Origin: Blastococcus sp. TBT05-19
GTDB taxonomy: Bacteria; Actinomycetota; Actinomycetes; Mycobacteriales; Geodermatophilaceae
Assembly: GCF_003319095.1 (NCBI RefSeq)
Contig: NZ_QOHI01000001.1
Location: 1,116,001-1,180,000, forward strand
Length of the DNA stretch: 64,000 nt
Direction: 5' to 3'
Made by a program: the position numbers and the translations under genes. Below the pieces are notes generated by a model. That model saw nothing but the letters and a program-made list of their open reading frames with translations, made no database searches and was not told the origin of the DNA. Positions 45,342 to 50,224 of the stretch are shown here, piece after piece; position 1 is the first letter of the stretch; the number at the start of each line of letters is the position of its first letter.

Positions 45342-46349
45342 TCACCGGACGACGACGGTGAACTCCCCGCGCGGCACGAACTCGCCGATCACCGGGGAAC
45401 CGGGGATCTCGCCGCCGAGCAGCAGACCCCCGGAGGTCTGGGCGTCGGCCAGCAGCAGCGCCTCGTCCTCGCTGATCGCCGACAGGTCGGCGTGCGGGCG
45501 CACCCAGTCGAGGTTGCGGCGGGTGCCGCCGGAGACGAACCCGTCGGCCAGCGCCTCGCGGGCACCGGTCAGGTACGGGACGGCGGCGGCGTCGACGACC
45601 GCGGTCACGCCGCTGGCCCGCGCCATCTTGTAGAGGTGGCCGAGCAGGCCGAACCCGGTGACGTCGGTACCCGCGCGGATGCCGGCGGCGACCGCGGCCC
45701 GCCCGGCGTCGCGGTTGAGCGCGGTCATCGAGGCGATCGCCTCCTCCGACACCTCGCCGGTCTCCTTCATCCGGCTGTTGAGCACGCCCACGCCCAGCGG
45801 CTTGGTGAGGGTGAGCGGGGTGCCGGCGACCGCGCCGGAGTTGGTGATCAGCCGGTCGACGTCGACCACGCCGGTCACCGCCATCCCGTACTTCGGCTCG
45901 GGGTCGTCGATGGAGTGCCCGCCCCCGACGTGGCACCCGGCTTCCTGGGCGACCTCGAGCCCGCCGCGCAGCACCTCGGCGGCGAGCTCCGCGGGCAGCA
46001 CGTCGCGTGGCCAGCCCAGGAGGTTCACCGCGACGACCGGGGTGCCGCCCATGGCGTAGACGTCGGACAGCGCGTTGGCCGCGGCGATCCGGCCGAAGGT
46101 GTACGCGTCGTCGACGACCGGCGTGAAGAAGTCGGTGGTCAGCACGAGGCCCTGACCGCCCGCGATGCGGACCACGGCCGCGTCGTCGCCGTCGTCCAGG
46201 CCGATCACCAGCTCGGACGCCGGGTCGACCGGCCCCTGGGCGGTGAGCCCGGCGACCACGGCCTCCAGCTCACCGGGCGGGATCTTGCAGGCGCAGCCGC
46301 CGCCGTGGGCGTACTGGGTGAGCCGGATGCGGGCGGGTGCGGTCGTCAC
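45342..46349 (-). CDS. selD: Selenide, water dikinase
   Basis: A 335-aa enzyme that makes selenophosphate from selenide and ATP, the selenium donor for Sec synthesis. The N-terminal active site reads QYAHGGGCACKIPP, with catalytic Cys19, Cys21 and Lys22; it is a Cys form, not Sec. VIGLDDGDDAAVVR and DVTGFGLLGHL are family motifs. GTG at 46349 is seven bases after a TAGATT -10, so the mRNA is leaderless. It is transcribed away from selC-selA-selB. Confidence 0.96.
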   Translation of the reverse strand: MTTAPARIRLTQYAHGGGCACKIPPGELEAVVAGLTAQGPVDPASELVIGLDDGDDAAVVRIAGGQGLVLTTDFFTPVVDDAYTFGRIAAANALSDVYAMGGTPVVAVNLLGWPRDVLPAELAAEVLRGGLEVAQEAGCHVGGGHSIDDPEPKYGMAVTGVVDVDRLITNSGAVAGTPLTLTKPLGVGVLNSRMKETGEVSEEAIASMTALNRDAGRAAVAAGIRAGTDVTGFGLLGHLYKMARASGVTAVVDAAAVPYLTGAREALADGFVSGGTRRNLDWVRPHADLSAISEDEALLLADAQTSGGLLLGGEIPGSPVIGEFVPRGEFTVVVR

Positions 46350-46356
46350 GGCACCG

Positions 46357-46362
46357 AATCTA
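46357..46362 (-). promoter_or_regulatory. -10 hexamer of selD (leaderless)
   Basis: TAGATT on the minus strand, seven bases before the selD GTG. Confidence 0.5.
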
Positions 46363-46371
46363 GGCCGGATC

Positions 46372-46956
46372 TCAGGCGAGGCCGCCGGGGAGCAGCCGGA
46401 GGCGGGGTGCCTGCGGCTGCGCGACCGGGCTACGGGGGAGCTTCCGCCCGGCCGGGTGGTTCGACGACGGCGGTGCGCCGAGCCCGTCGAGCTCACGGCG
46501 GGGGGAGACCTCGTCGGTGATCTGGACCTCGCTGATCCGGTCCTCGCGGAACCAGCGCAGCGCCTGGCGGTCGCGGCACCAGGCGACCAGGAACTGGTGC
46601 GCCCCGGAGCGGACGAGCGCCTGCGGCTCCACGGTCCGCTCCGACCAGCGGTTCTGCGCGTCGCAGTAGTCGAGCACCAGCACCCGCCGCTCGGTCAGCC
46701 CCTGCTCCACGCGGCGCCGCAGCTCGGCGTCGCGCGCGGCCTCGGCCGCGACCCAGCGGCTGCTGGCCAGCATCTGGCCGCGACGGCCGGCGTCGGGCTC
46801 CAGCGCCGTCAGCACCTTCTCGAGCGCGGACTCCCCGGCCTCGGCGAACTGGCCGGGAGGCCGGCCGGTCAGCGCGGCGACGACCGCGGCGGCCTCCTCC
46901 GGGGAGAGGTCGACCGGGGGCAGCGGCGCGGGGGTGCGGTGCTCGGTGCGGGTCAC
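46372..46956 (-). CDS. WYL-domain protein lacking an HTH
   Basis: A 194-aa protein resembling the effector part of WYL regulators: LSPEEAAAVVAALTG and SALEKVLTALEP are the segment that normally follows the winged helix, and VLVLDYCDAQNRWSERTVEPQ is the WYL fold core. The N-terminal DNA-binding domain (about 60 residues) is missing, and the sequence upstream leads straight into selC. It sits between selD and selC. It may be a truncated regulator or a standalone ligand-binding protein; a link to selenium is only positional. Confidence 0.7.
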   Translation of the reverse strand: MTRTEHRTPAPLPPVDLSPEEAAAVVAALTGRPPGQFAEAGESALEKVLTALEPDAGRRGQMLASSRWVAAEAARDAELRRRVEQGLTERRVLVLDYCDAQNRWSERTVEPQALVRSGAHQFLVAWCRDRQALRWFREDRISEVQITDEVSPRRELDGLGAPPSSNHPAGRKLPRSPVAQPQAPRLRLLPGGLA

Positions 46957-47009: not shown

Positions 47010-47105
47010 GGAGGCGTCAGGGTGTCTGGTGGCCCCCGCGGCCTCTAAAGCCGACGTGGTCGAGCATCTCGGCCAGGCGGGTTCGATTCCCGTCCGCCTC
47101 CGCCA
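47010..47105 (+). tRNA. selC: Selenocysteine tRNA with CUA anticodon
   Basis: A 96-nt tRNA with encoded CCA. Acceptor GGAGGCG (47010-47016) pairs CGCCTCC (47095-47101). D arm GGGTGTC/GGCCCCC with a short TGGT loop, anticodon stem CGGC/GCCG with loop CTCTAAA, long variable arm TGGTCGAG/CTCGGCCA (eight pairs), T arm with loop TTCGATT, discriminator G. The extended D stem with four-base loop and the 13-bp acceptor-T helix mark it as tRNA-Sec. Read as eight plus five pairs the eighth is a U-C mismatch; read as seven plus six all pair. The anticodon, 47045-47047, is CUA, so it reads UAG. The flanking loop bases C32 U33 and A37 A38 are as in ordinary tRNA-Sec. Confidence 0.93.
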
Positions 47106-47151: not shown

Positions 47152-47163
47152 CGTCGGTGCGCC

Positions 47164-47177: not shown

Positions 47178-48488
47178 ATGAGCGCCGACCCGCGCCGGCA
47201 GGTGCCGCGCACCGACACGCTGCTCGCCGATCCGCGCCTGGCGGCCGCCGGCGAGCGGCTCGGACGTGCGCTGGTGAAGGGCGCCGTCCAGCGCGTGCAG
47301 CAGCGGGTGCGGGCCGGCGAGGTGGCCCCGGACGCCGCGGTCGACGCCGTCGTCGCCGAGCTGCCGGGCACCGCGTCGAGCCTGCGCCCGGTGCTCAACG
47401 CGACCGGCGTCGTCGTGCACACCAACCTCGGTCGGGCGCCGCTCTCCGACGCGGCCGCCGAGGCGATCGCGGCCGCCACCGGCACCACCGACGTCGAGCT
47501 CGACCTGCGCACCGGACGGCGCGGACCGCGCGGCGAGGCGGCGATCGCCGCCCTGCTGGCGGCCGTCCCCGCCGCGGAGGCCGCGATCGTGGTCAACAAC
47601 TGCGCCGCCGCGCTGGCCCTGGTCGCCACCGCGCTCGGCGGCGAGCTGGTGATCGCCCGGGGCGAGCTGGTCGAGATCGGTGACGGCTTCCGCATCCCGG
47701 AGCTGCTGGAGAGCACCGGTGCCCGGCTGCGCGAGGTCGGCACCACCAACCGGGTCACGGGAGCGGACTACCGGGGCGCGCTCGGCCCGGACACCGGCGC
47801 GGTGCTCAAGGTGCACCCCTCGAACTTCGTCGTCCGGGGCTTCACCCGGGCGGTCGAGGTGGACGAGCTGGCGGCGGTGCTGGCGGGCACCGGGGTGCCG
47901 CTCGTCGCCGACGTCGGCTCCGGCCTGCTCCGCCCGCACCCCGTGCTGCCAGACGAGCCCGACCTGCAGACGACGCTCGCCGCCGGTGCCGACCTCGTCC
48001 TGGCCAGCGGCGACAAGCTGCTCGGCGGGCCCCAGGCCGGGCTGGTGCTGGGCCGTGCCGAGCTGGTGCAGCGGCTGCGCCGGCACCCGCTGTACCGGGC
48101 CCTGCGGGTCGACAAGACCACGCTCGCCGCGCTGGAGGCCACGCTCCGGGGACCGGTGCCGCCGGTCCAGCAGATGCTCGCCGCCGACGTCGAGGGACTG
48201 CGGGCGCGCGCCCGGGCGCTCGCCGCCCGGCTGAGCGGCGCCGGGATCGACGCCGTCGCGGTCGACGCCGAGTCGCGCGTCGGCGGGGGAGGGGCGCCCG
48301 AGCACCCGCTGCCCGGCGCCGCCGTCTCGCTGCCCCGGGAGTTCGCCGAGCCGCTGCGCCTCGGCGCCCGGCCGGTCGTGGGCTACGTGGAGGACGACCG
48401 CACCCTGCTCAACCTGCGCAGCGTCCTGCCCACCGCCGACGACGCCCTGGCCGACGCGGTCCTGGAGGTGGCGGGCACGTGGACGTGA
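47178..48488 (+). CDS. selA: L-seryl-tRNA(Sec) selenium transferase
   Basis: A 436-aa PLP enzyme that converts Ser-tRNA(Sec) to Sec-tRNA(Sec) using selenophosphate. The PLP-binding Lys280 is in LASGDKLLGGPQAG, and NATGVVVHTNLGRAPLS and EVGTTNRV are typical SelA motifs. Length is normal, so the enzyme should be active on the CUA-type tRNA. ATG at 47178. It overlaps selB by ten bases. Confidence 0.96.
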   Translation: MSADPRRQVPRTDTLLADPRLAAAGERLGRALVKGAVQRVQQRVRAGEVAPDAAVDAVVAELPGTASSLRPVLNATGVVVHTNLGRAPLSDAAAEAIAAATGTTDVELDLRTGRRGPRGEAAIAALLAAVPAAEAAIVVNNCAAALALVATALGGELVIARGELVEIGDGFRIPELLESTGARLREVGTTNRVTGADYRGALGPDTGAVLKVHPSNFVVRGFTRAVEVDELAAVLAGTGVPLVADVGSGLLRPHPVLPDEPDLQTTLAAGADLVLASGDKLLGGPQAGLVLGRAELVQRLRRHPLYRALRVDKTTLAALEATLRGPVPPVQQMLAADVEGLRARARALAARLSGAGIDAVAVDAESRVGGGGAPEHPLPGAAVSLPREFAEPLRLGARPVVGYVEDDRTLLNLRSVLPTADDALADAVLEVAGTWT

Positions 48489-50224
48489 TCGCGACGGCCG
48501 GGCACGTCGACCACGGCAAGTCCGCGCTCGTCCGCGCGCTCACCGGCATGGAGCCCGACCGCTGGGCCGAGGAGCGCCGCCGCGGGCTGACGATCGACCT
48601 CGGCTTCGCCTGGACGACGCTGCCCTCGGGCCGCCGGCTCGCGGTCGTCGACGTGCCGGGGCACGAGCGGTTCGTCGGCAACATGCTCGCCGGTGTCGGC
48701 TCGGTCCCCGCCGCCCTGGTCGTGGTCGCGGCCGACGACGGCTGGTCGGCCCAGACCGCCGAGCACGTCGCCGTCCTGGACGCCCTCGGGGTGCGGCACG
48801 CGCTCCTCGCCGTCACCAAGTCCGACCTGGCCGACCCGGCACCCGTCCTGGCCGACGTCCGGGAGCGGCTGGCCGCCACGTCCATGGGCGAGGTCCCCGG
48901 TGTCGCCGTCAGCTCGGTGACCGGGGCCGGTGTGCCGGAGCTGACCGCCGCCCTCGAGCGGCTGCTGGCGGAGCTGCCCGCTCCCGATGCCGCCGCACCG
49001 GTGCGGTTGTGGATCGACCGGGCCTTCACCATCACCGGTGCCGGCACCGTCGTCACCGGGACGCTCGCAGCCGGCACCGTCGCCGCCGGCGACCGGTTCG
49101 TGCTCGGTGACCGCGAGGTGGGCGTGCGGGGTGTGCAGTCGCTCGGGGAGCCGGTCGACCGGGCCCCGGCCACGGCCCGCGTCGCCGTCAACCTGCGCGG
49201 CGTCGCGGTCGAGGACCTGTCCCGGGGCGACGCGCTGCTCACCCCTGGCGCCTACCGGCTGACCGACGTCGTCGACGTGACCCTGGACGCGGCACCCGAG
49301 GACCAGCTCCCGGCCGAGCCCGTGGTGCACGTCGGGTCGGCCACCGTCGGCGCCCGGCTCCGGCCGCTGGACGGCGCCGCGCTCCGGCTGCGGCTGACCC
49401 GGCCGCTGCCGCTGCGGATCGGTGACCGGCTGCTGCTGCGCGACCCCGGCGCCCGCCGGGTGCTCGGCGCCGACGTCCGCGACGTCGACCCGCCGGAGCT
49501 CCGCCGTCGGGGTGCGGCCCGGCAGCGGGGCGCCGACCTGGTCGCCCAGCCCGGCGGCGACGCCGGAGCGGCCGCGGACCTGGCGCGCCGCCGGATCGTG
49601 CGCGCCGCCGACTTCGCCGCGATGGGGTGGCCGGTGCCCGTCGGCGCGACCCAGCAGGGGACGTGGCTGCTGGCGCCCGGTCTGGCCGACGAGCTGGGCG
49701 CGCGGGTGCCCGACGTCGTCGCGCGGTACCGCCGGCTCCGTCCGCTCGAGCCCGGGCCGCCGGCCGAGGTGGTGCGCCGGGCGCTCGACCTGCCGGACGC
49801 CGACCTGGTGGCGGGTCTCGTGCGCGAGCCGCTGCTGCTGCGCGAGGGCCGGGTCGTCGACGGCTCGGCCGACCTGCCGCCGGCGGTGCAGAAGGCCGTC
49901 GACGAGATCCGCGCGCGCCTGGTGCTCGACCCGTTCGCCGCCCCGGAGGCGCCGGACCTGGTCGCCGCCGGGCTCGGCGTGCGCGAGCTGGCCGCGGCGG
50001 TGCGGAGCGGTCAGCTGGTGAAGGTCGGTGAGGGCGTCTTCCTGACGCCGGAGGTCGAGGGCGTCGCCCGCAACCGGCTGGCCACGATCGCGCAGCCGTT
50101 CACGCTCAGCCAGGCCCGTCAGGCGTGGGGCACCAGCCGCCGGGTCGCCGTCCCGCTGATGGAGTGGCTGGACGCGCGCGGGGTCACCGAGCGGCTGCCG
50201 GACAACTCCCGCCGCCTCCGCTAG
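48479..50224 (+). CDS. selB: Selenocysteine-specific elongation factor SelB
   Basis: A 581-aa GTPase that delivers Sec-tRNA(Sec) to the ribosome. It starts VDVIATAGHVDHGKSAL (G1) with VDVPGHERFVGNML (G3) and TKSD (G4), followed by two beta-barrel domains and C-terminal winged helices (GVRELAAAVRSGQLVKVGEGVFLTPE; LMEWLDARGVTERLPDNSRRLR at the end, in two parts) that bind the SECIS RNA. The final winged helix looks complete. The GTG start is within the end of selA. The stop codon is TAG, notable because UAG is the predicted Sec codon. Confidence 0.95.
   Translation: MDVIATAGHVDHGKSALVRALTGMEPDRWAEERRRGLTIDLGFAWTTLPSGRRLAVVDVPGHERFVGNMLAGVGSVPAALVVVAADDGWSAQTAEHVAVLDALGVRHALLAVTKSDLADPAPVLADVRERLAATSMGEVPGVAVSSVTGAGVPELTAALERLLAELPAPDAAAPVRLWIDRAFTITGAGTVVTGTLAAGTVAAGDRFVLGDREVGVRGVQSLGEPVDRAPATARVAVNLRGVAVEDLSRGDALLTPGAYRLTDVVDVTLDAAPEDQLPAEPVVHVGSATVGARLRPLDGAALRLRLTRPLPLRIGDRLLLRDPGARRVLGADVRDVDPPELRRRGAARQRGADLVAQPGGDAGAAADLARRRIVRAADFAAMGWPVPVGATQQGTWLLAPGLADELGARVPDVVARYRRLRPLEPGPPAEVVRRALDLPDADLVAGLVREPLLLREGRVVDGSADLPPAVQKAVDEIRARLVLDPFAAPEAPDLVAAGLGVRELAAAVRSGQLVKVGEGVFLTPEVEGVARNRLATIAQPFTLSQARQAWGTSRRVAVPLMEWLDARGVTERLPDNSRRLR

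Follow-up and report, generated by a model that had tools for sequence, protein, structure and literature searches.

Some bacteria spell selenocysteine (Sec) with UAG or with Cys codons (PMC10778597, PMC8124441). The closest case is found in the Geodermatophilaceae, for which passages of the Secmarker study (Santesmases 2017, PMC5330540) report three genomes carrying tRNA-Sec with the anticodon CUA, cite Mukai 2016 for UAG-Sec forms of formate dehydrogenase (FDH) and UGSC in this family, and add an AhpC with Sec-TAG from Blastococcus saxobsidens DD2. tRNA-Sec variants whose anticodons read Cys or other sense codons have also been described, for example in Aeromonas salmonicida ssp. pectinolytica (PMC10778597, PMC5756416). 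Here we describe the sel locus in a stretch of 64,000 nucleotides (the window) from Blastococcus sp. TBT05-19, and follow the Sec codon and its anticodon through the family. The initial annotation of the window had mentioned reports of CUA forms of tRNA-Sec from Geodermatophilaceae, in agreement with the passages of PMC5330540 cited above.

Results

A tRNA-Sec gene with the anticodon CUA. The selC gene, which includes its CCA end and encodes a long variable arm, occupies positions 47010..47105 of the forward strand, as identified with Rfam model RF01852, ARAGORN and an alignment. The anticodon CUA lies at 47045..47047 (+) according to the sequence, ARAGORN (position 36) and the alignment, and is embedded in the loop CTCTAAA. 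RF01852 accepts the tRNA at full length (47010-47101, 65.8 bits, cut-off 47, E 1.9e-13). The coordinates, sequence and anticodon given in the initial annotation thus stand, as does its identification of the gene as a tRNA-Sec, which was to be checked with a covariance model. When selC was aligned with 21 other actinobacterial tRNA-Sec (13 CUA, 8 UCA), the anticodon arm was typically GGTCTTCAAAACC in the UCA rows and GGCCTCTAAAGCC in the CUA rows. The two types differ by two anticodon substitutions and by the pair that closes the loop (T-A in UCA rows, C-G in CUA rows including the window), and the stems are otherwise kept. In all 22 sequences position 8 is unable to form an eighth acceptor pair, T8 and the C facing it are invariant, and an acceptor/T branch read as 7+6 keeps 13 pairs.

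RF01852 produced nine matches in the Blastococcus sp. TBT05-19 genome (3.92 Mb, 99.89% complete), selC among them. ARAGORN identifies the other eight as tRNA-Ser (3), tRNA-Tyr, tRNA-Leu (2) and tRNA-Met (2), the best being a tRNA-Ser(TGA) that at 51.8 bits likewise exceeds the cut-off of 47. A second selC with the anticodon UCA, whose presence the initial annotation had named as evidence against a UAG code, was looked for across the whole 99.89% complete assembly with a sequence pattern and RF01852, and none was found.

The sole tRNA that ARAGORN reports in the window is the one at 47010-47105 (+), with the anticodon CTA, and the program labels it tRNA-Pyl. Taken literally, this label would make UAG a pyrrolysine codon. 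We regard this as extremely improbable, as the variable arm is long, unlike the three-base arm of tRNA-Pyl (PMC7609411), the full-length RF01852 score is 65.8 bits, and the gene has selD on one side and selA-selB on the other. Pyrrolysine is also disfavored by the UAG sites described below, which are Sec/Cys positions with UGA or Cys in orthologues.

The sel genes around selC. The genes that flank selC all encode proteins above the NCBIfam cut-offs, consistent with the earlier description of intact selenocysteine machinery at this locus. Selenophosphate synthetase is encoded by selD on the reverse strand (ORF extent 45342..46496; TIGR00476, 389.1 bits, cut-off 125). The TIGR00476 match begins at residue 58 of the ORF, and the true start probably lies further inside it. 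The protein is the Cys form of SelD, with the motif GGGCACKIPP. Downstream on the forward strand, selA (L-seryl-tRNA(Sec) selenium transferase) occupies 47178..48488 (TIGR00474, 421.8 bits, cut-off 267.9), with the ATG at 47178 a likelier start than the listed ORF start at 47157. It is followed by selB at 48479..50224 (+), which encodes the Sec-specific elongation factor (581 aa; TIGR00475, 282.6 bits, cut-off 242.25) and itself ends in TAG. The SelA protein is 94% identical to that of Blastococcus sp. LR1, which also has the closest SelB among those compared (92%). In a SelB tree the window protein sits within a clade of CUA genomes (100/100 support).

UAG in the selenoprotein genes of the window genome. 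Four selenoprotein families were searched for in the genome: fdhA, AhpC-TSA, UGSC and AhpD-like. As TIGR01591 splits actinobacterial fdhA, 220 residues around the Sec site were used as the query instead. The fdhA gene contains one in-frame TAG (G000:C7:131219-131221) at the Sec site NQARI-U-HSATVPGL, and the same position is TGA in orthologues of other actinobacteria. With this TAG translated as Sec, FdhA scores 1442 bits against NF041513 (formate_DH_Act; cut-off 1400). A second gene with UAG is one of six matches in the Pfam AhpC-TSA search; it encodes a peroxiredoxin-like protein with a W-U-P-Y-C motif, the TAG lying at G000:C10:478763-478765. UGSC and the UGA-type AhpD-like protein gave no match in this genome. 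Two further molybdopterin oxidoreductases, both distant (32% and 27%), have Cys at the Sec position. The prediction that UAG serves as the Sec codon was therefore met with TAG, not TGA, at the fdhA Sec site and with a second TAG gene from the AhpC-TSA search, and no in-frame TGA, the other observation named as evidence against it, was seen in the families searched.

The genome might nevertheless use both UGA and UAG for Sec, as its relative Geodermatophilus sp. LHW52908, with two tRNA-Sec, seems to do (see below). We consider this very unlikely for the window genome, which has neither a UCA tRNA-Sec nor a match to the UGA AhpD-like protein. By ordinary pairing rules, moreover, CUA does not read UGA.

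A conserved hairpin follows the Sec codon of fdhA. The SECIS hairpin expected after the in-frame TAG is present in fdhA, where a stem of seven pairs with the loop GGUCU and the core CCCGGUCUGGG lies 3' of the Sec codon. This core does not vary among 43 distinct UAG and 10 UGA fdhA sequences. The hairpin shows covariation at synonymous positions: the third base of a Val codon is paired with the third base of a Gly codon, standard pairing holds in 43/43 UAG sequences, and four pair types occur (GU 20, CG 15, GC 5, UA 3), a level of conservation equaled by none of 10,000 shuffles. The lower stem is weakly kept, with pair 12-35 present in 14 of the 43 sequences and the outermost of the seven pairs in 5 of the 10 UGA sequences. 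Two fdhA genes (L336 and L337) have a changed loop, and the Cys orthologue of Actinophytocola has lost the core. Folding of single sequences gave nothing unusual for fdhA (z -1.57) or for the peroxiredoxin-like gene (z -0.25). For the latter, an inverted repeat, CCAGGCGGTCCGYCTGG, is found 3' of the TAG in 29 of 30 loci, and the remaining one (L302) differs by one base.

The codon follows the anticodon in the Geodermatophilaceae. We examined 80 selA loci from named genomes. A CTA tRNA was present in 38/38 loci from Geodermatophilaceae and in 0/42 from other actinobacteria, of which 28 had TCA and 14 had no tRNA-Sec inside the locus; the 38 include a locus from a record titled Bacillus sp. AZ43. 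Because of this division between the family and other actinobacteria, the CUA tRNA is not a product of chance. The AZ43 record, flagged UNVERIFIED_ORG, has a Blastococcus-like selA (87%) and a CTA tRNA, and is evidently a mislabelled member of the Geodermatophilaceae.

The Sec codon of fdhA was surveyed in 50 genomes, comprising the window genome, 37 of the 38 family genomes (that of locus L037 being left out) and 12 from the 42 other actinobacteria. The 38 family genomes gave 44 matches, each with one TAG. Among the 12 other actinobacteria a close match was found in 11, with TGA in 10 and TGC (Cys) in Actinophytocola; one genome (G047) has a further 38% match without a stop and another (G044) has no match. 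The selA locus of Actinophytocola still has a UCA tRNA-Sec beside the Cys codon and lost SECIS core of its fdhA. In a further 80 family genomes, chosen by kinship, fdhA matched in 70, with one TAG in 68 of them. Many genomes of this set appear to share their species with genomes of the first (e.g., G107 and G011), so that the two sets of counts are not independent. The two remaining matches lack the Sec site: one (G145) is partial, and in the other (G128) a segment is deleted, the frame is broken and a TGA lies off site. Both fdhA copies of G128 (L266 on C4, L267 on C12) are without the stretch that holds the Sec codon and hairpin and have frame shifts there, which reflects either a deletion or an assembly dropout at the hairpin. 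The Sec codon position was read directly in 85 of 87 fetched fdhA loci (74 TAG, 10 TGA, 1 TGC) and in 12 further loci (10 TAG, 2 TGA); for matches outside these loci the codon rests on the stop count of the search.

Other selenoprotein genes behave in the same way. The peroxiredoxin-like gene matched in 30 of 112 family genomes, with TAG in 30/30 loci read. In two of these loci, from different genera (L302 in G153 and L303 in G077), the TAG is kept and the frame is lost in the same way just before the inverted repeat. UGSC occurs in 19 of the 50 genomes with 36 matches, of which 25 have one TAG, 11 have no stop and none has TGA; in the 25 of 30 UGSC loci read (L157, L159, L163, L164 and L169 were left out) there were 16 TAG and 9 Cys codons.

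Such broken genes in relatives, namely, the fdhA copies of G128 and the peroxiredoxin-like frames of G153 and G077, could be taken to mean that selC is dead or mutated and that the TAGs inside reading frames arose as nonsense mutations during gene decay. We give this explanation almost no credence, given that the same CUA tRNA is present in 101 of the 112 family genomes, that all 44 fdhA matches in the set of 38 carry TAG, that the reading frames are open on both sides of the TAG, and that the fdhA hairpin covaries at synonymous positions.

A probable single anticodon switch. The exact CUA tRNA-Sec pattern was found in those 101 genomes, covering 9 of the 12 genera. A UCA pattern was found in 8 of the 112, namely, in 7 of the 9 genomes of three genera (g5, g6 and g7; loci L226-L230 and L344-L350) and in Geodermatophilus sp. 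LHW52908 (G107, genus g3), which matches both patterns; four incomplete genomes match neither. No fdhA match was obtained in any of the nine g5, g6 and g7 genomes. Among 397 genomes drawn from the order, CUA was found in 75 Geodermatophilaceae and in 1 of 322 genomes from elsewhere (G279). This last genome was considered as a CUA case outside the family, and mis-binning is the likelier account: the tRNA (L326, C194) is on a 4.8-kb contig whose selA DNA is Geodermatophilaceae-like, and the SelB of the bin is 55% identical to that of the window. The SelB tree has 43 rows, and its 16 CUA rows fall into a single clade (100/100) whose sister is the UCA genus g5 (98/95); g6 and g7 are placed elsewhere with weak support. 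The simplest reading is a single switch from UCA to CUA after g5 had split off.

Repeated changes of the fdhA codon. A tree of 51 FdhA proteins was constructed with the Sec column masked. The distribution of UAG on this tree requires five changes, four of them forced by well-supported branches, in a count that does not separate gain from loss. Since no UGA or Cys row belongs to the family (two are from plasmids, eleven from the 50-genome search), we take the direction of change to be from UGA to UAG. Constraining all UAG rows to group together cost 179.8 log-likelihood units (p-AU 1.4e-58). One UAG copy (L334) groups with a Nocardioidaceae MAG (100/98); another set (L131-L133 and L335) is nested among UGA rows (group support 100/99, closest fork 94/86); L130 groups with the Actinophytocola Cys copy (100/99); and L336 stands beside the L334 and L130 lineages (84/85). 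In CUA genomes, fdhA copies of this kind, second or divergent and with foreign affinities (L130, L131-L133 and L334-L336), have TAG in all ten cases read, which suggests that acquired fdhA genes had their Sec codon re-spelled after transfer.

Such transfer is plausible because complete selB-selA-tRNA-Sec(UCA)-selD-nrfD-FeS-fdh cassettes are present on two plasmids, from Arthrobacter and Tsukamurella (L324, L325, L337 and L338), the former of which is typed as conjugative. The PLSDB gene table, which is without RNA genes, has no feature under the plasmid tRNA-Sec match. The foreign-looking UAG lineages could also descend from ancient paralogues recoded together in one step, when the anticodon switched. 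One lineage (L131, L132, L133 and L335) does occur in four genomes of more than one genus, as old paralogues might, but the remaining ones (L334, L130 and L336) are each known from a single genome and placed next to rows from other families that have UGA or Cys, and we think paralogy the less likely source, though one with a real chance of being correct. Whichever reading holds, paralogy or acquisition, the tree demands no fewer than four separate changes.

A strain with two tRNA-Sec. Geodermatophilus sp. LHW52908 has a tRNA-Sec(CUA) at selA, and TAG in its fdhA and UGSC genes (L235 and L155). It also has an intact tRNA-Sec(UCA) (G107:C17:1169-1263, reverse strand, 81.8 bits). Divergent to the latter lies an AhpD-like gene of 192 codons (G107:C17:1579-2157, +; both in L223), which is above cut-off for PF02627 and TIGR01926 and below it for NF041238 (AhpD_rel_CFYUT). 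Its codon 98 is an in-frame TGA in a CxxU site, CFYU, where 16/16 aligned homologues (19 other loci were fetched) have the second Cys of a CxxC motif. A local hairpin 3' of the TGA is statistically not unusual (z -0.04). The genome encodes one SelB (81%), the second match being a distant GTPase (36%).

The UCA gene lies toward the end of a 69-kb contig, of which 60 kb was read. The first 15 kb, the end with the tRNA-Sec(UCA), have a G+C content of 0.64-0.71 and contain IS elements; the next 45 kb have a G+C content of 0.73-0.785 and host-like tetramers. This composition favors a foreign island over contamination, though the contig may be chimeric. The other family genomes of the 112-genome set contain no close copy of the AhpD-like gene, their matches having at most 40% identity and no stop. 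Among plasmid proteins, all 333 records were below 60% identity to it, the best rows at 28-34%, and a search of viral contigs for a source of the UCA tRNA or the AhpD-like gene returned nothing. In plasmid DNA the tRNA part of the region alone matched; two of the five matches were opened, and both proved to be full sel cassettes. From one strain with a draft assembly, at a contig end and for a gene without a close homologue, these data indicate that LHW52908 probably uses two Sec codons, UAG and UGA, in one cell.

Discussion

Our results make it very probable, from the genomic record, that Blastococcus sp. TBT05-19 inserts Sec at UAG by means of tRNA-Sec(CUA), SelA, SelD, SelB and SECIS hairpins. 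In the proposed system, the single-copy tRNA-Sec(CUA) would be charged with serine, and SelA would convert the seryl-tRNA to Sec-tRNA with selenophosphate from SelD. SelB would then recognize the hairpin and carry the Sec-tRNA to UAG codons that a SECIS follows, which in this genome would be those of fdhA and the gene for the peroxiredoxin-like protein with W-U-P-Y-C, so that both proteins should contain Sec. Release factor 1 would presumably compete at these codons. UAG elsewhere, which ends 3 of the 47 called genes of the window, selB included, should remain a stop because no SECIS follows it.

The initial annotation had proposed that UAG is the less costly codon to recode in a genome where 56 of 60 genes end in TGA and 4 in TAG. 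With a simple home-made gene caller, applied to the window and the fetched sel loci, we did not recover these exact numbers in the window, and the picture is the same (44/47 TGA, 3 TAG and 0 TAA). TGA ends 282 of 324 called genes in CUA loci versus 235 of 296 in other actinobacterial sel loci, and TAG, somewhat rarer in CUA loci, 39/324 versus 53/296, in loci that share orthologues. The cost argument fits such numbers and explains little, because most genes in the sel loci of actinobacteria that use UGA for Sec also end in TGA. It is the dependence on SECIS, more than the rarity of the stop, that should protect ordinary UAG stops.

For the family, we favor, with some reservation, the view that one switch from UCA to CUA created a code barrier, and that incoming selenoprotein genes either were re-spelled, as fdhA would have been several times, or brought their own tRNA, as in LHW52908 with its two codons. 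If this is true, LHW52908 serves one 21st amino acid by two codons and two tRNAs. The family holds both states, with three UCA and nine CUA genera, together with the repeated fdhA changes and the one strain with two tRNAs, so that a code change and its effect on gene transfer can be tested in living relatives. The locus also adds a clear-cut example of Sec apparently encoded by a stop codon that is not UGA, and annotation with the standard code would truncate both fdhA and the peroxiredoxin-like gene here. A literature search that stopped short of full texts found no published report of the genus-level map of CUA and UCA, the repeated recoding of fdhA or a strain with two Sec codons.

The system of the window is a further instance of the UAG-Sec published for the Geodermatophilaceae. 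It shares with the published cases the CUA tRNA-Sec, TAG in FDH and an AhpC-type gene with Sec-TAG, and UGSC with TAG is likewise present in the family. The window genome differs in having FDH and the peroxiredoxin-like gene without a UGSC match. The scale also differs, with three genomes named in the passages of PMC5330540 compared with 112 family genomes, and three UCA genera, here. The canonical actinobacterial UGA-Sec system likewise has selA, selB, selC, selD, SECIS and fdhA together, with the core CCCGGUCUGGG in 10/10 sequences, and the same sel genes are together with a UCA tRNA-Sec on plasmid pYA7-1a and Tsukamurella plasmid 17; the window differs in having CUA for UCA and TAG for TGA. 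As in the Aeromonas-type variants, SECIS and SelB would let the anticodon change, but there it is a Cys codon that is recoded, whereas the system of the window would recode a stop codon. With the pyrrolysine system it has in common the anticodon CUA and a UAG that is read as an amino acid, and it is distinguished from that system by the tRNA-Sec fold, the long variable arm, the sel genes and the SECIS hairpin.
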